A stretch of DNA of 39,869 bases from a bacterium BMS3Bbin09 (GCA_002897915.1 BDTS01000083.1:1-39869); one strand, 5' to 3'; shown: positions 1 through 19,924, counted from the stretch's first letter. The notes: generated by a model not told the origin, from the sequence alone. Program-made: numbers and translations.

Positions 1-110
1 ATTTCTGGATGAATCTTCAGTTACGCTGTGATTTATATAATGCAAGACTAAATGAATCAAAAGAATTGAAGGAGATCAGACCGTTAAAGTTGAAACAGAC
101 AGCGGTTTAA
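1..110 (+). CDS. higA: HigA family antitoxin, 3' end only (second copy)
   Basis: The window opens inside a gene whose last 110 bases, including the TAA stop at 108-110, are identical to the 3' end of the complete higA at 2399-2508. It therefore encodes the C-terminal 36 residues of the same antitoxin. Its 5' part and presumably a higB lie left of the window. It is the last gene of a cassette whose attC starts with the GCCCA box at 121-125, exactly as in the complete copy. Perfect identity over this stretch, against roughly 95% in the intron that follows, suggests a recent duplication or gene conversion. The reading is secure; whether the missing part is intact cannot be seen. Confidence 0.85.
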   Translation, partial: FWMNLQLRCDLYNARLNESKELKEIRPLKLKQTAV

Positions 111-125
111 AAAAAGAAGTGCCCA

Positions 126-768
126 ATCGGATAAGCGGGGTTTTTTCTCCCCCGCTCTCCACACCACCCCCCGAAAAACAAGGGTCTTCGACCGGCAAGC
201 GGGTCCCTGTCTGCCGACAGGCAGGCGCACCGGGCGGTTCCCAGAGCATGACGGCCCGTAGGCGGTCAACAATACCAGAGACATCATAAGATGCCCCTTT
301 GGGGCGAGAAATTCAATAACGCGCTGTGTGGTCACTTATCCATTCGGATTCAATGTGCCACACGAGCTTCTTGTGACCCGTATTCCCCTACTCTGAGTTC
401 AGCCCTTCACCACCTGCCTGCCGGCAGGCAGGTGTGTCAGGCATTACCCCGACCGTTAGGCTACTATGGCCTCTGTGCCTAAAGCACCTACTGTTGGCTG
501 ACTTCTGCCTCATCACCTGCAAGGTTACCCTGACAGACGCTATGATTGACTGCCGTGGTCTGCTATCTCATTTGTGTATCCCGAAGGCTCATGTCATCTG
601 ATAGCTCAACGACATGCCTGGGCTTGTTAAACCAGTTGCCCTTCTGGTATTCCTACCACAACAGTTTCATCGCATGTGAAGCAGATCTCCCCGAATAAGG
701 ACCTGCCTACCGGACAGGCAGGTACAGGGGACTTTAACCCCATTAGTTCACGCCCATGCCGGGCGTAC
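126..768 (-). mobile_element. Group IIC-attC intron-like element, copy A, no reverse transcriptase
   Basis: On the minus strand the element starts with GTACGCCCGGCATGGGCG, which resembles domain I starts of bacterial group II introns (GTGCGCCCGGCATGGG-like, from memory), and ends with a GC-rich hairpin and CCGAT. The flank next to the end is TGGGC, and in copy B the other flank is TTGT; together they give TTGT/TGGGC, the known target of group IIC-attC introns on the bottom strand of attC. There is no reverse transcriptase ORF, so it could only move in trans. It contains several palindromes of the CCTGCCTGCCGGCAGGCAGG type. Compared with copy B it lacks about 172 bp. The 5' boundary is uncertain by two bases. 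No other gene is seen in 111-943. Confidence 0.6.
411..434. repeat. Perfect 24-bp GC-rich palindrome (REP-like)
   Basis: The stretch is a perfect inverted repeat around GCCGGC, with arms CACCTGCCTGCC. Relatives lie at 206-225 and 701-723 in this intron copy, and at matching sites plus 3272-3293 in copy B. A half element, CAGGCAGGCA, is near 32733. They look like a dispersed palindromic repeat family that entered the intron before it was duplicated. Confidence 0.75.
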
Positions 769-943
769 ACCAGGCAGTGCTCTGAATGCCTGCCAGCGAT
801 ATCGATTTGATTTTTATTAGTTTATGATATGCAAATCGTCTTTCGAGCTTGTTTCAGTTTTTCATGGCAGGCATCAGAGACTTCATCGTTATGTGTAAGG
901 AATTCAAAGTAAAACAATATGTTTCTAATTTACAGGGGGCTAA

Positions 944-1759
944 ATGAAAAGATTTTTATGTCATATTATTATCTTTGGGATAATTGTTATTCAAGGTTCG
1001 GTGTCATGGGCTAATACTCCTTGGGAAGAATTTAATAAACTGAAAGAGAATTATTATCTTTTTGATTATCAAGAGGTTGATAGTGTCACATGCCGTATTG
1101 TAGCCCCATCTCTTGACCCCAAGAAGATGAGTGAACCGCTAAAGCCTATAGAAAAGAATATAAAGATTGTGGAAAATATTGGCGATTTCAAAGTAACGTA
1201 TAGCCGTGACAATGGACTAACCTTTGTCGTTCCCCGCTTTAAAGCATTTATAGTGTCACCCGAGACTGCGGAGGATCTAAAGCAACTTGAGTATTCTGTC
1301 AACAGTTTTAATCAAAGCACTGAAGGAGCTATTCAGGGACTCGTCCAATCTATTGAAGGCATATTAGATGAGTTTATGCTGCCAAAGAAGGAGTCGGTAT
1401 CCGACCTACAAGTTTCCAACAACGGATCGGAAACAACAATAAAATACAATAGGCGCGGGGCATCCCACGTTGATGTCTATTCTGGAAATATGAGGAAGAC
1501 TAACGCCAACATGCCAGGTTTAGAATTGGAATCACATGATGTGTTCGAAAATATCAAAGGCAAGCTTTTTTTGTCAAAATCCTCAATAAACATAAAACAA
1601 GGGGAAACTACTATAGATAGCAAAGTAGTTATTCAACCTAAGGATTTGGGCAGGATCTTTTTCCCCATGTTTATTGAACAAAAAGTGCATATTTCTAATC
1701 CAAATTTTAATATGGATGCCGATCTGGCACTCACATTCGATCAATGTAAAGTAGACTGA
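944..1759 (+). CDS. Hypothetical secreted protein, integron cassette gene
   Basis: I do not recognise the family of this 271-residue protein. It starts with a clear signal peptide: basic MKRF, a hydrophobic stretch to about residue 20, then a probable cleavage site near SWA-NT. The rest is soluble and beta-rich looking, with two cysteines in the mature part (SVTCRIV and the C-terminal DQCKVD) that could form a disulfide in the periplasm. A Shine-Dalgarno-like CAGGGGG precedes ATG 944. The gene fills its cassette (889-1818): the start core lies about 55 bp upstream and the R'' box 9 bp past the stop. I see no promoter, so it may depend on read-through from the left. One-gene cassettes of unknown function are typical of large integron arrays. 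Confidence 0.8.
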   Translation: MKRFLCHIIIFGIIVIQGSVSWANTPWEEFNKLKENYYLFDYQEVDSVTCRIVAPSLDPKKMSEPLKPIEKNIKIVENIGDFKVTYSRDNGLTFVVPRFKAFIVSPETAEDLKQLEYSVNSFNQSTEGAIQGLVQSIEGILDEFMLPKKESVSDLQVSNNGSETTIKYNRRGASHVDVYSGNMRKTNANMPGLELESHDVFENIKGKLFLSKSSINIKQGETTIDSKVVIQPKDLGRIFFPMFIEQKVHISNPNFNMDADLALTFDQCKVD

Positions 1760-1767
1760 ACTAATAG

Positions 1768-1824
1768 CACATAGCAAGGCGTTGCACGGGAAGCGTATCC
1801 GCTCCCGTGATCTTGGCGTTGGGC
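1768..1824 (+). other. attC site 2 (57 bp)
   Basis: The R'' box CACATAGC at 1768-1775 is complementary, except for one base, to GTTATGTG at 888-895, where this cassette starts. It is followed by the stem CACGGGA...TCCCGTG and the R' core GTTGGGC at 1818-1824. The total of 57 bp is the classic attC size. The recombination point would be between G1818 and T1819. Confidence 0.72.
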
Positions 1825-1837
1825 ACATAAATAAACA

Positions 1838-1867
1838 TTGATAATAGCATGAGTACCGTGCTATCAT
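1838..1867 (+). promoter_or_regulatory. higBA promoter with an inverted repeat (leaderless start)
   Basis: TTGATA (1838-1843) and TATCAT (1862-1867) are 18 bp apart. An inverted repeat, ATAGCA...TGCTAT, lies between and over the -10 box, where a HigA dimer would be expected to bind. Transcription should begin about seven bases after the -10, at or next to the higB ATG (1874), and no Shine-Dalgarno is visible. The toxin message may therefore be leaderless. Confidence 0.5.
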
Positions 1868-1873
1868 GATAAC

Positions 1874-2167
1874 ATGATTCAGTCATTCCGAAATAAAGGG
1901 ACAGAAGATATATTTAATGGTATAAATTCAAAGGATGCACGAAAAAAATGCCCTCGGTCATTATGGGGTGTCGCTACCAGAAAACTGGATCAACTGGATT
2001 CAGCAATACAGCTTAATGAACTTCGCATACCGCCAAACAATAAGCTGGAGTCCTTAACAAGAGATAGAAAAGGACAACACAGCATAAGGATAAATGATCA
2101 GTATCGTATTTGCTTTATCTGGAGTGAATCGGGGCCAGATAAGGCAGAAATTACAGATTATCATTGA
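1874..2167 (+). CDS. higB: HigB-type RelE/ParE superfamily toxin
   Basis: The 97-residue protein matches the HigB branch of RelE/ParE toxins, which are mRNA interferases acting at the ribosome. Typical features are the N-terminal IQSFRNKGTEDIF, the middle KLDQLDSA and ELRIPPNNKLE, and the C-terminal HSIRINDQYRICFIW with conserved Arg and aromatic residues followed by ITDYH. The length fits the family. It is the first gene of a two-gene operon, 23 bp ahead of higA, in the toxin-first order normal for higBA. ATG 1874 has no visible Shine-Dalgarno, while higA has a strong one, which would favour antitoxin synthesis. The pair sits in its own integron cassette, where toxin-antitoxin pairs are common and are thought to stabilise arrays. 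Confidence 0.92.
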   Translation: MIQSFRNKGTEDIFNGINSKDARKKCPRSLWGVATRKLDQLDSAIQLNELRIPPNNKLESLTRDRKGQHSIRINDQYRICFIWSESGPDKAEITDYH

Positions 2168-2190
2168 GATAATTATTAAGGAGGCAAACA

Positions 2191-2508
2191 ATGGTTAGAA
2201 TACCAACACATAGAGAGCCAACACATCCGGGAGAAATGCTGCTTGAGGAGTTTCTTAATCCTATGGGCATTACTCAGAGAGAGCTATCTGAAAAGATTCA
2301 TGTCCCATATCAGCGAGTCAATGAAATTATCAATAAAAGGCGGGGCATTACGCCAAGCACAGCCTTAAGACTTGCTAAATTATTCAGAGTTTCTGAAGAT
2401 TTCTGGATGAATCTTCAGTTACGCTGTGATTTATATAATGCAAGACTAAATGAATCAAAAGAATTGAAGGAGATCAGACCGTTAAAGTTGAAACAGACAG
2501 CGGTTTAA
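2191..2508 (+). CDS. higA: HigA family addiction-module antitoxin (XRE-type HTH)
   Basis: This 105-residue protein neutralises HigB and should repress the higBA promoter. It has the HigA N-terminal signature HPGEMLLEEFL at about residues 12-22. An XRE-type helix-turn-helix follows: ITQRELSEKIHVPYQRVNEI, then GITPSTALRLAKLF and FWMNLQ. The start is set by a strong Shine-Dalgarno (AAGGAGG, 9 bp upstream of ATG 2191). The last 110 bases are identical to the partial copy at the left edge. Eleven bases past the stop comes the GCCCA R'' box of the cassette's attC, then the intron. Confidence 0.95.
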   Translation: MVRIPTHREPTHPGEMLLEEFLNPMGITQRELSEKIHVPYQRVNEIINKRRGITPSTALRLAKLFRVSEDFWMNLQLRCDLYNARLNESKELKEIRPLKLKQTAV

Positions 2509-2516
2509 AAAAAGAA

Positions 2517-3405
2517 GTGCCCAATTGGATAAGCGGGGGTTTTTCTCCCCCGCTCTCCACACCACCCCCCGAAAAACAAGGGTCTTCGACCGGCAAGCGG
2601 GTCCCTGTCTGCCGACAGGCAGGCGCACCGGGCGTTTCCCAGAGCATGACGGCCTGTAGGCGGTCAATAGTATCAGAGACATCATAAGATGCCCCTATGG
2701 GGCGAGCGATTCAACTTCACGCCGTGTGGTCACTTATCCGTTCGGATTCAATGTGCCACACGAGCTTCTTGAGACCCGTATTTCCCTACTCTGAGTTCGG
2801 CCCTTCACCACCTGCCTGCCGGCAGGCAGGTGTGTCAGGCATTACCCCGACCGTTAGGCTACTATGGCCTCTGTGCCTAAAGCACCTACTGTTGGCTGAC
2901 TTCTGCCTCATCACCTGACAGGTTACCCTGACAGACGCTATGATTGACTGCCGTGGTCTGCTATCTCATTTGTGTATCCCGAAGGCTCATGTCATCTGAT
3001 AGCTCAACGACATGCCTGGGCTTGTTAAACCAGTTGCCCTTCGGTATTCCTACCACAACAGTTTCATCGCATGTGAAGCAGATCTCCCCGAATAAGGACC
3101 TGCCTACCGGACAGGCAGGCGTGAACTGTCGCTACACAACCGCAGCATTTACTCCCGGCTCAACACAACACCGGGACAGGCTCCTCCACTGAACCCCGGG
3201 CTTCGTTGTGTTGTGCCAACTCGGAATCGAGTCTCGGTACGAGTCGCAACGACGTACCGACTTACCCGCAGACCTGCCTGACGGCAGACAGGTACAGGGG
3301 ACTTTAACCCCATTAGTTCACGCCCATGCCGGGCGTACACAATGCCATGCACTGGATTTGTATTCCGCTGCGCTCCACACAAACCAGTGATGGCCGTCGT
3401 TATAA
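2517..3405 (+). other. attC site 3, interrupted by a group II intron-like element
   Basis: The R'' box GTGCCCA at 2517-2523 is complementary to the cassette's own start, TTGGGCAC at 1819-1826. After the insert, ACAATGCC resumes at 3339. Rejoining the flanks restores the canonical R'' GCCCAAC followed by AATGCC. The arms GCCATgCACTGG (3344-3355) and CCAGTGATGGC (3384-3394) pair perfectly except for one extrahelical G, as expected in attC L''. An extra TTTGT/ACAAA pair lies inside. The R' core is GTTATAA at 3399-3405. Without the insert the site is about 74 bp. Confidence 0.72.
2524..3338 (-). mobile_element. Group IIC-attC intron-like element, copy B, no reverse transcriptase
   Basis: This is the longer of two copies. 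On the minus strand it runs from 3338 (GTACGCCCGG...) to 2524 (...TTATCCAAT). Its flanks are TTGT and TGGGC, the group IIC-attC target. The 3' end carries an 8-bp perfect hairpin, AGCGGGGG/CCCCCGCT, in the position of domain VI. No reverse transcriptase is encoded in 815 bp. Four GC-rich palindromes are embedded. Relative to copy A it keeps about 172 bp (roughly 3120-3293), bounded on both sides by related palindromes, so A probably lost this part. Assignment rests on insertion site and end sequences; the domain V fold was not verified. No other gene is seen in 2509-3427. Confidence 0.6.
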
Positions 3406-3427
3406 ACGATAAATTAAAACCTTCTTC

Positions 3428-3456
3428 TTGACATTAAAGCGTTTTGACGTTATAAT
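3428..3456 (+). promoter_or_regulatory. Perfect sigma-70 consensus promoter of the RHH/RelE cassette
   Basis: TTGACA at 3428-3433 and TATAAT at 3451-3456 are separated by exactly 17 bp. It lies inside the cassette, 28 bp after the start core, so this pair is transcribed independently of its array position. A strong Shine-Dalgarno, AAGGAGG, follows at 3462-3468. Confidence 0.85.
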
Positions 3457-3475
3457 GACTTAAGGAGGATGAAAC

Positions 3476-3709
3476 ATGAAAACTAAGACTAAACGCGCAA
3501 CAATTTATCTTGATCCTGACCTTCACAAAGCTTTACGTATTAAATCGGCGGAGACAGACCATTCTATATCGGAGATAGTGAATGATGCAATTAAATATTC
3601 CTTGGCGGAAGATTCAATTGATCTTGCAGCTTTTGAGAATCGCAAGGATGAACCATTAATAGCATTCGAGGATGTTCTGAAGGAACTGAAAAAGAATGGC
3701 AAAATATGA
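3476..3709 (+). CDS. Ribbon-helix-helix antitoxin (CopG/RelB-like)
   Basis: This 77-residue protein is the antitoxin of a type II pair. Its N-terminus has the ribbon-helix-helix pattern: a basic strand (RATIYLDPDLHKAL at about 8-21), a first helix and a second helix (SISEIVNDAIKYSL at about 30-43). The acidic, poorly ordered C-terminus (residues 44-77) is the likely toxin-wrapping part. The start has an excellent Shine-Dalgarno and lies just downstream of a consensus promoter, which it probably represses. Its last 14 bases overlap the start of the relE-like gene, implying translational coupling. Confidence 0.9.
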   Translation: MKTKTKRATIYLDPDLHKALRIKSAETDHSISEIVNDAIKYSLAEDSIDLAAFENRKDEPLIAFEDVLKELKKNGKI

Positions 3710-3956
3710 GATATCCGCAAAAAAGTCTGCTTTAAAAGAACTTAATGGCATACCAAAAAAAGAACTACAAAAAATATTAAAAAAGATAAGGGCTTTATCT
3801 TTAAACCCGAGGCCACAAGGGTCACAGAAGTTATCACATAGAGAACAGTATAGATTCCGACAAGGGGATTACAGAATAGTTTATTCCATCAGAGACGATG
3901 ATTTAGCAGTTCATATAATTAAAGTGGGACATAGAAAAGAAATTTATCGTTTATAA
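3696..3956 (+). CDS. RelE family mRNA interferase toxin
   Basis: The 86-residue protein is a typical RelE/ParE-fold toxin. It begins MAKYEISAKKSALKELNGIPK, with the usual basic first helix and KILKKIRALSLNPRPQGSQKL. It ends with the strand-rich core YRFRQGDYRIVYSIRD and HIIKVGHRKEIYRL, where conserved Arg, Tyr and His residues normally contact mRNA in the ribosomal A site. The upstream ribbon-helix-helix gene overlaps it by 14 bp. The stop codon lies inside the R'' box (3948-3957), which is very compact cassette architecture. Confidence 0.93.
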   Translation: MAKYEISAKKSALKELNGIPKKELQKILKKIRALSLNPRPQGSQKLSHREQYRFRQGDYRIVYSIRDDDLAVHIIKVGHRKEIYRL

Positions 3957-3972
3957 CCAGGCATTTGATCGA
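3948..3972 (+). other. Truncated attC (R'' box only)
   Basis: CGTTTATAAC at 3948-3957 is the perfect ten-base reverse complement of the cassette start GTTATAAACG at 3399-3408, so it is the R'' end of this cassette. A small hairpin (GCATT...AATGC) follows, but no R' core (GTTRRRY) is found downstream. The site is probably truncated and marks the right end of the array. Confidence 0.55.
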
Positions 3973-4320
3973 ATGCAGAGCAAATCATCAATAAAACAGA
4001 AATTATTATTAATTGTATTTGGACTGTTCATTGCTCTTCTTTTAACTGAGGGGTTTTTTAGAATTGCTGGATTAATCGTCCATGAAGAAAATATTCTTCC
4101 GTCTGAAAAAAAAGATAATACATATAGAATTCTTTGTATCGGAGATTCAAGTACATACGGTATAGGATCAACTGATTCAGAAAAATACAGCTACCCGGCT
4201 CAACTCCACACACTGTTCAATACCCGGTTGTCAAACGTCAATCACCGATTTTCAAGCAACGCTTCAAACTCATTCCTGAATTTCCTTATCATGGCCGCTA
4301 TCGGCAAGCTAACCGCATAA
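3973..4320 (+). pseudogene. SGNH/GDSL hydrolase family protein, truncated
   Basis: The first 90 or so residues look real: a basic N-terminus, a transmembrane or signal-anchor helix (KLLLIVFGLFIALLLTEGFF, about 11-30), then GDSSTYGIG near residue 57, which is block I of SGNH hydrolases with the nucleophilic serine. YSYPAQLHTLFNTRLSNVN then fits this family (often polysaccharide O-acetyl modification). After about base 4240 the sequence becomes the reverse complement of the nuoF-like 3' end, so the ORF runs through foreign sequence to a chance stop. Blocks with the catalytic Asp and His are missing. This is a 5' gene fragment at a rearrangement junction and unlikely to be functional. Confidence 0.75.
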
Positions 4321-5462
4321 CCAAAAGCGCATATCGTGGAGCCGTTTATATAACGGCACAATCTCATGACCTGGTCCAGATCGTCTTGTTCTCCCTGTCC
4401 GTTCACCATACGATCGAGCAATAATTTTATCATTGCCGTCCCCTCACGGCAGGGTGCGCACTGTCCGCATGATTCATGCGCGTAAAACCTTGCCGCCTTC
4501 TGCGCCACACGCGGGATCGATACTGTCTCATCCATTACAATAATCCCGCCGGAACCGAGCATCGTCTTTACAGCGGCAAGAGTATCAAAATCCATACTGA
4601 CGTCTATCTCGTCCGCTCTCAGTATCGGGGTCGAAAGCCCGCCCGGTATAACCGCCTTCAATTCTTTGCCGCCCTTTATACCCCCTGCCGCCTCATAGAT
4701 CAGCTCCCTTAGCGAAGTGCCCATAGGATATTCATAAAGTCCGGGCTTGTTTACATGACCGCTTATGCTGAAAAGCTTTGTGCCGCCTCTTCCGGTACTG
4801 CTGGCGGCCTTAAAGGCATCCGGCCCGTTCTGGATTATAAAAGGAATGCATGAAAAGGTCGTTACATTATGAACAAGCGTAGGCTTTCCATACAGGCCGT
4901 TTGTACCTGGAAACGGCGGTCTCAGCCTCGGTCGACCCGGCTTGCCTTCCAGAGACTCAATGAGCGCGGTCTCCTCACCGCAGACATACGAACCCGCCCC
5001 CCTGAACACATCGATATAAAAAGAAAAACCAGAACCGAGTATATTATCTCCCAGAAGGCCCTCTCTTACTGCTTCATCAATTGCCTTCGGAAGAAATTTG
5101 GCTATCCATCCGTACTCACCCCTGAGGTAGATAAAGCCCTGCTTCGCACCCACTGCATAAGCAGCGATCACCATTCCCTCGATCAGGAGATGGGGATCGA
5201 ATTCCATAATGTGACGGTCCTTGAACGTGCCAGGCTCGCCCTCATCAGCATTGCATATCAGGTATATCGTGCCTCTACTGTTTTGGGGGAGGAACTTCCA
5301 TTTCAGGCCAGCCGGAAAACCACCGCCTCCCCTGCCCCTCAGGCCGGACCTCTCAACCATAAATGCCACCTCTTCCGGTCTCATTGAGAGGGTCTTTTTG
5401 AGGGCCTCATATCCTGAGATCTTCGTGCCGCCTGATATATTCGCAGTCAGTATCTTCTTCAT
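4242..5462 (-). CDS. nuoF: NuoF-like NADH:acceptor oxidoreductase subunit of formate dehydrogenase
   Basis: The 406-residue flavoprotein binds NADH and FMN and passes electrons to or from Fe-S clusters. Visible motifs are the glycine-rich NADH/FMN loop GRGGGGFPAGLKW (about 43-55), NADEGEPGTFKDR (71-83), GAGSYVCGEETALIESLEG (155-173) and the 4Fe-4S ligands C332, C335, C338 and C378 (SCGQCAPCREGT...ICAF). It lacks the thioredoxin-like N-terminal domain found in longer homologues; that role falls to the neighbouring nuoE-like gene. It overlaps that gene by 4 bp and is last in an operon with fdhA. This context marks it as the diaphorase of a soluble NAD-linked, possibly electron-bifurcating, formate dehydrogenase rather than respiratory complex I. 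Its stop codon touches the accessory-region junction. Confidence 0.93.
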   Translation of the reverse strand: MKKILTANISGGTKISGYEALKKTLSMRPEEVAFMVERSGLRGRGGGGFPAGLKWKFLPQNSRGTIYLICNADEGEPGTFKDRHIMEFDPHLLIEGMVIAAYAVGAKQGFIYLRGEYGWIAKFLPKAIDEAVREGLLGDNILGSGFSFYIDVFRGAGSYVCGEETALIESLEGKPGRPRLRPPFPGTNGLYGKPTLVHNVTTFSCIPFIIQNGPDAFKAASSTGRGGTKLFSISGHVNKPGLYEYPMGTSLRELIYEAAGGIKGGKELKAVIPGGLSTPILRADEIDVSMDFDTLAAVKTMLGSGGIIVMDETVSIPRVAQKAARFYAHESCGQCAPCREGTAMIKLLLDRMVNGQGEQDDLDQVMRLCRYINGSTICAFGYAVSLPIAAMIRKFRNEFEALLENR

Positions 5463-19627: not shown

Positions 19628-19656
19628 ATTATACGATATTTGTCCGGATAGGTAAA
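19628..19656 (-). promoter_or_regulatory. Promoter of etfB-etfA-fabD
   Basis: On the minus strand TTTACC (19656-19651) and TATAAT (19633-19628) are 17 bp apart, about 57 bp upstream of the TTG start. The -35 box coincides with the edge of the tandem repeat array. Confidence 0.6.
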
Positions 19657-19826
19657 GTCGAATTAAGCGATTCGTAGAATTCACTTCAATGAGACTTATG
19701 CCTGTTGGTATAAAGTCGAATTAAGCGATTCGTAGAATTCACTTCAATGAGACTTATGCCTGTTGGTATAAAGTCGAATTAAGCGATTCGTAGAATTCAC
19801 TTCAATGAGACTTATGCCAGTTGTAT
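19654..19826. repeat. Three 58-bp tandem repeats upstream of etfB
   Basis: Units start at 19654, 19712 and 19770. The first two are identical; the third differs by one substitution and one deletion near its end. Each has the inverted repeat CGAAT-TAAGCG-ATTCG (19659-19674 in unit 1). There are no spacers, so it is not CRISPR. The array runs upstream from the etfB -35 box. The rest of 19572-19954 holds this promoter and a hairpin. Confidence 0.92.
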
Positions 19827-19924
19827 AAAGAAAAGAAATAAAAAAAGGAAGGAGTACAACCCGCTAATTTCAGTCATGTCCCCTTAATGGACTTTTCAAT
19901 ATATCATAATGCCAGCAATAATCA

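Follow-up and report, generated by a model that had tools for sequence, protein, structure and literature searches.

The cassette array at the contig end

The DNA considered here is contig C83 (BDTS01000083.1, positions 1–39,869) of the bacterium BMS3Bbin09, the genome of which spans 1.85 Mb on 115 contigs and is 92% complete. The whole stretch of 39,869 nucleotides is referred to as the window. An integron cassette array has its distal end in positions 1–3957, which hold parts of four cassettes (A to D), all on the same strand. The cassettes are bounded by attC sites with the R''-L''-L'-R' architecture and extrahelical bases. One of these sites is intact, and two are each split by a group II intron on the minus strand.

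Cassette A is cut by the contig end, and only the 3' end of a HigA-like antitoxin gene is present (1–118, plus strand). Intron 1 (126–768, minus strand) lies between the outer part of its R'' box (GTGCCCA, 119–125, plus strand) and the other elements of this attC. These follow, on the bottom strand, at 769–895 (minus strand) and comprise L'', a long loop, L' and the R' core GTTATGTG (888–895). The body of cassette B (889–1775, plus strand) runs from the TT of its own R' to the R'' box CACATAGC (1768–1775) and encodes a 271-aa protein with a signal-peptide-like N-terminus (944–1759, plus strand), for which searches of Pfam, NCBIfam and PDB gave no match. Its attC is the intact one (1768–1824, plus strand), consisting of CACATAGC, the bulged stem CACGGGAAGCG/CGCTCCCGTG and the R' GTTGGGC (1818–1824).

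Cassette C carries a HigB-like toxin gene (1874–2167, plus strand; Pfam PF05015, 55 bits) and a HigA-family antitoxin gene (2191–2508, plus strand; TIGR02607, 103 bits against a cut-off of 47.7). These are followed by the outer part of the R'' box (GTGCCCA, 2517–2523, plus strand), by intron 2 (2524–3338, minus strand) and by an attC remainder of the short-loop type (3339–3405, minus strand) with the R' core GTTATAA (3399–3405). The body of cassette D (3400–3957, plus strand) ends in the R'' box CGTTTATAAC (3948–3957). It holds a gene for a 77-aa antitoxin-like protein (3476–3709, plus strand), which has no match above a curated cut-off, and a RelE/ParE-like toxin gene (3696–3956, plus strand; Pfam PF05016, 48 bits). 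The HigBA-like and RelE/ParE-like matches bear out an earlier description of the cargo, made from the sequence alone, as toxin–antitoxin pairs and an unknown exported protein. At its distal end, the array probably closes with a truncated attC that retains the R''-L'' half only (3948–3981, plus strand; a sequence reading), for which no R' was found.

Core boxes and attC structure

In an integrated array, the partner of the R'' box is the beginning of its own cassette and not the R' of the following one. This cassette rule is obeyed by three pairs of boxes: GTTATGTG (888–895) with CACATAGC (1768–1775), GTTGGGCAC (1818–1826) with GTGCCCA (2517–2523), and GTTATAAACG (3399–3408) with CGTTTATAAC (3948–3957). 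All three had been noticed in the sequence-only reading, and they hold at those positions. Removal of the introns improves the match of R'' to GTTGGGCAC at both split sites, compared with the 7-nt match GTGCCCA. The first pair is weak alone, as 25% of random 8-mers of the window have a one-mismatch complement 300–1000 nt downstream; the third, an exact 10-nt complement, is expected by chance at 0.03% of positions. Because single box pairs are weak evidence, the case was rested on structure and homology.

The two split sites and the intact site of the window were aligned with fourteen sites preceding intron copies in this genome and its relatives. RNAalifold predicts one bulged stem of 15 pairs for these 17 sites, with the bulges fixed, and in 13 of the 15 pairs both partners have changed, with pairing kept, in at least one sequence. 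Excised site 1 folds better than all of 200 shuffled sequences, and the intact site better than 194 of 200.

Three covariance models were used. R1 includes the window sites, among them 3341–3406. To avoid circularity, R2 was built with nothing from this genome, out of ten relatives' sites and four from a Nitrospirota contig (L033), and R3 solely from intron-free attC sites. The first split site is matched strongly at 771–895 by R2 (91.5 bits, E about 1e-20) and by R3 (91.9 bits). The intact site is matched by R2 at 1776–1825 on the minus strand with 32.7 bits (E about 1e-5; 32.7–35.6 bits across R1 and R2).

Introns within the attC sites

Both introns are of the group IIC type and lack an open reading frame (ORF). 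Intron 1 (643 nt) and intron 2 (815 nt) are matched on the minus strand by the Rfam model RF01998 (group II intron D1-D4) at 402–539 and 2800–2937, with 49.6 and 46.0 bits against a cut-off of 35, and two further matches to this model occur elsewhere in the genome, on C54 and C58. Intron 1 lies at GT^T in the attC bottom strand. Excision of either window intron restores a core box (GT^TGGGCAC, equal to GTTGGGCAC), the empty sites being GCATTGT^TGGGCAC for intron 2 and CCTGGT^TGGGCAC. With the RF01998 match, this restoration confirms the intron-excised site at 2517–3405 that had been postulated from the sequence. The target of group IIC-attC introns is TTGT/T in the R'' of the attC bottom strand, with the intron opposite to cassette transcription (PMC7923331), and the site of intron 2 matches this target exactly.

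The intron 5' end GTGTACGCCCGGCATGGGCG is common to 22 copies in the examined loci, with up to five substitutions. In the seven attC-borne copies with both ends present, excision restores the GT^T core of R'', namely GTTGGGC in both window copies and GTTATGT, GTTAGCC, GTTATGC, GTTAGGT or GTTATCG in the others. Of the 22 copies, counted in this genome and its relatives, 14 have an R3 match that ends no more than 3 nt from where the intron begins. Not among these 14 is a 1964-nt copy in a relative (L139, on G008:C26), the sole member of the intron family seen with its own reverse transcriptase; it follows a terminator-like hairpin and lies upstream of a full intI that the contig also carries, at a distance of about 1.3 kb. 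A relative's miniature intron of 174 nt (L136:3609–3784), reduced to the 5' end and domain VI, lies exactly in an attC site.

No reverse transcriptase and no ORF was found in either window intron. On alignment and inspection by eye, a domain V with a CGC-type triad is recognisable in the C54 copy and in those of relatives, and its strand is uninterrupted in the C54 and G018 copies. Both window copies share an identical 24-nt insertion in the 3' strand of domain V. Owing to this shared insertion and to the missing reverse transcriptase, the window introns are probably splicing-dead. They are also mosaic: the middle and the 5' end of intron 2 resemble the C54 copies, and intron 1 resembles the C58 copy. 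As copies with the domain V insertion are unlikely to splice, DNA recombination would be the likelier route of their duplication.

A dispersed palindrome of the CCTGCCTGCCGGCAGGCAGG type occupies several intron loops, including that of domain V (207–228, 411–434 and 700–723, with matching places in intron 2), and many related genomes contain short stretches matching it. The 5' end and domain V of the introns may resemble those of the Oceanobacillus iheyensis IIC intron.

Integrases and further arrays in the genome

The sequence-only reading described an array without a visible integrase. This is true of the contig, but it is probably an effect of the assembly, which breaks in a repeat, and not a trait of the organism. 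C43 and C93 each encode a full-length IntI protein of the TIGR02249 family (435 and 421 bits, cut-off 265), and the C43 protein can be aligned over its whole length, IntI-specific segment included, with the Vibrio integrase structure 2A3V. Each of these two contigs begins about 300 bp upstream of the full intI, where attI and the cassettes would be expected. Truncated copies of intI lie on C55, C92, C97 and C102. Genes for intI and further attC sites do exist, but on other contigs; C83 starts inside the array, and the 20 kb to its left, where the sequence-only reading proposed to search for intI, lie outside the contig.

Sites of the attC type were found on seven other contigs (C54, C55, C57, C58, C62, C92 and C114), and C26 has one as an intron-fragment site. 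C55 shows the textbook layout, in which a truncated intI is followed by three same-strand cassettes with an attC after each (the third attC was recognised by eye). Linkage of intI to attC is seen on C55 and C92 with truncated intI, and with full intI in the relative G002/L033.

Several IntI (L022:313–1662, L023:291–1556 and L025:1428–2138) carry an extra N-terminal region of about 100–135 aa with a second SAM-like domain (two PF13495 stretches). The long form is matched over nearly its full length in Allochromatium, Thiocapsa, Desulfurivibrio and other genomes; no published account of the extra domain was found in the literature. The truncated genes (L026:100–1190, L028:8240–9095, L025:1428–2190 and L027:11600–12080) fall into two sequence groups, and nearly the same middle segment has been lost from them (profile positions about 72–76 to 257–275). 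At the break in the C97, C55 and C102 copies lies an ORF, or the remnant of one, resembling the 23S rRNA intervening sequence protein and flanked by AGCTATCAGC-type repeats. A recombinase near an attC on C114 was rejected as an integrase, being below the IntI cut-off and devoid of the IntI-specific stretch (profile gap 177–202). By eye, this tyrosine recombinase (L024:187–1243) probably belongs to an IS91-like element; it adjoins a short attC-like site (24 bits, E 0.009).

Host lineage and distribution

In the contig L033, from a metagenome-assembled genome recorded as 'Nitrospira sp.' (BS150m-G55), the coordinates of intI and of the attC sites agree with those in G002:C34. The two are the same contig, with four attC sites beside a full intI. 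DnaE of this relative is 72% identical to that of BMS3Bbin09, against 44–53% for thirteen other genomes. The host therefore belongs to the phylum Nitrospirota and to the same family as G002/L033, although the title of the relative's record may be loose. Among 61 genomes (this one and relatives within its class), R3 detects attC in 43, and IntI above the cut-off is found in 27. Little literature on integrons in Nitrospirae was found; one paper mentions attC homologues in Nitrospirota (PMC9668308).

Origin of the region and competing explanations

Taken together, the region is very probably part of a chromosomal integron of a Nitrospirota bacterium, namely the distal end of its cassette array, with introns of the group IIC-attC type in two of the attC sites. 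The attC models, the covariation and the IntI of the genome all support the idea of a cassette array, first raised from the sequence. The two conditions named in the sequence-only reading as refuting it were put to the test, and the idea withstood both. The components are known; the unusual features are the ORF-less, degenerate, mosaic introns and the number of arrays in one Nitrospirota genome.

As in other integrons, IntI would fold the bottom strand of attC and exchange circular cassettes, and the cassettes for toxin–antitoxin pairs and for the exported protein would have arrived through such exchange. After assembly of the array, two attC sites would have received group IIC introns in their bottom strand, at the GT/T junction of R'' and beside a hairpin that would replace the introns' second exon-binding contact. 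Intron insertion parts R'' from its attC stem, and the split sites should block excision of the affected cassettes. The introns appear to have lost their reverse transcriptase. Judging by their mosaic sequences, DNA-level recombination between copies, and not splicing with reverse transcription, is probably the way in which they now spread and diverge.

Several observations weigh against this interpretation. C83 holds no intI, and in the assembly no integrase is linked to the window array. The second split site (3341–3406) was missed by the independent models R2 and R3; it reaches 36 bits with R1, a model that contains this very site, so that the covariance check is strong for one split site and weaker for the other. 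It is supported by its fold (z -2.8, better than 198 of 200 shuffles), the bulged stem and the restored core box. The leftmost partial cassette (the HigA end, 1–118) may be an unfaithful second copy. The Rfam model of domains V–VI gave no match to the introns even at E up to 1, and their 3' half was assigned by alignment and by eye. A search of the genome, 92% complete, for a maturase found none, and a maturase could be lost from view owing to that incompleteness.

An alternative that is a sub-case of the cassette array, and somewhat less probable than an even chance, holds that the array is a true cluster of attC sites lacking integron-integrases (CALIN), an orphan left by past integron activity or derived from another cell and mobilised only in trans. 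The contig without intI, the truncation of several intI copies in the genome, the truncated attC at the end of the array and the splitting of two attC sites by introns all fit this. On the other hand, C83 starts inside the array, at a repeat, which places the proximal side outside the contig, and the starts of C43 and C93 shortly before a full intI are what one would expect had their arrays been cut off at the same repeats.

It is unlikely that the introns remain active, with a reverse transcriptase supplied from elsewhere in the cell and homing into attC continuing. The reverse-transcriptase-bearing copy of G008 and the uninterrupted domain V strand of the C54 and G018 copies speak for activity; the failure to find a maturase, the domain V insertion of the window copies and the palindromic repeats in several of their loops speak against it. 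The only reverse transcriptase found in the genome, on C8, was rejected as a trans-acting maturase, as it adjoins cas1 and cas2 and its match stops before the maturase part of the profile. The CRISPR-associated reverse transcriptase gene lies directly upstream of cas1 and cas2 at L031:929–3224.

Slightly less likely still, the introns may serve as portable homology that reshuffles cassettes without the integrase, so that recombination between introns swaps attC among genes. Recombination between introns has been proposed for group IIC-attC introns in cassette formation. In the window, the same HigA end with its R'' box is joined to two different attC stems, each via a near-identical, mosaic and probably splicing-dead intron. 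This arrangement rests on an assembly branch point, and for that reason such swapping is held improbable. Window positions 1–127 are exactly identical to 2399–2525, and exactly 127 nt are common to the contig end of C54 and intron 2; the recurrence of this length at two places suggests overlaps of an assembly with k = 127.

Finally, it is hardly credible that these are ordinary toxin–antitoxin operons, with the boxes and hairpins between them explained as transcription terminators and chance repeats. Group IIC introns do also insert after terminators (PMC7923331), as the L139 copy appears to do, and one box pair alone is no better than chance. Yet a 125-nt site in which the sequence of R' and of the loop is conserved, the bulges are fixed and the stems covary is present in 43 of the 61 genomes and adjoins intI in several of them, and terminators would not yield a GTTRRRY-like box upon intron removal.

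Relation to known systems

The cassette array with its inserted introns resembles sedentary chromosomal integrons and CALINs in its attC sites with extrahelical bases, its one-strand cassettes rich in toxin–antitoxin genes and the TIGR02249 IntI of the genome. It differs from them in that one Nitrospirota genome contains several small arrays together with full as well as truncated integrases, in the mostly long attC loops (sites of about 125 nt) and in the extra N-terminal SAM-like domain of the integrases.

Like group IIC-attC introns such as S.ma.I2 (PMC7923331), the introns immediately follow the hairpin in the bottom strand of attC, at GT/T of R'' and opposite to cassette transcription, in arrays with toxin–antitoxin cargo. 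Unlike them, they are 640–815 nt long, with a degenerate domain V and loop palindromes and, in one relative, the 174-nt miniature; no class C intron-encoded protein was found in the genome, and only one copy, in a relative, has a protein. As intron RNAs without a reverse transcriptase of their own, they resemble the ORF-less bacterial group II introns, which are described as uncommon and as having, in almost every case, a related protein encoded elsewhere in their genome (reviewed in PMC4424553). They depart from these in that no related protein was found in this genome and that ORF-less copies recur across related genera.

These findings firmly establish integrons, several arrays to a genome, in a family of Nitrospirota, provide an attC covariance model that detects sites in most of the related genomes, and reveal a bacterial lineage with degenerate ORF-less group IIC introns inside attC sites. 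Two questions become testable, namely whether IntI can no longer act on an intron-split attC and whether attC sites pass from gene to gene by recombination between introns. In the latter case, the expected trace is the same gene end joined to different attC stems via shared introns.

Other features of the window

Beyond the array, the window continues with chromosomal genes, first a remnant of a hydrolase gene (3973–4320) and then a minus-strand gene (4242–5462). A weak attC-model match at 19765–19811 was discarded, as it belongs to a tandem palindromic repeat and not to an attC. Tandem copies of the repeat, AATTAAGCGATTCGTAGAATTCACTTCAATGAGACTTATGCC, occupy 19655–19830, and related repeats lie downstream of intI on C43 and C55.

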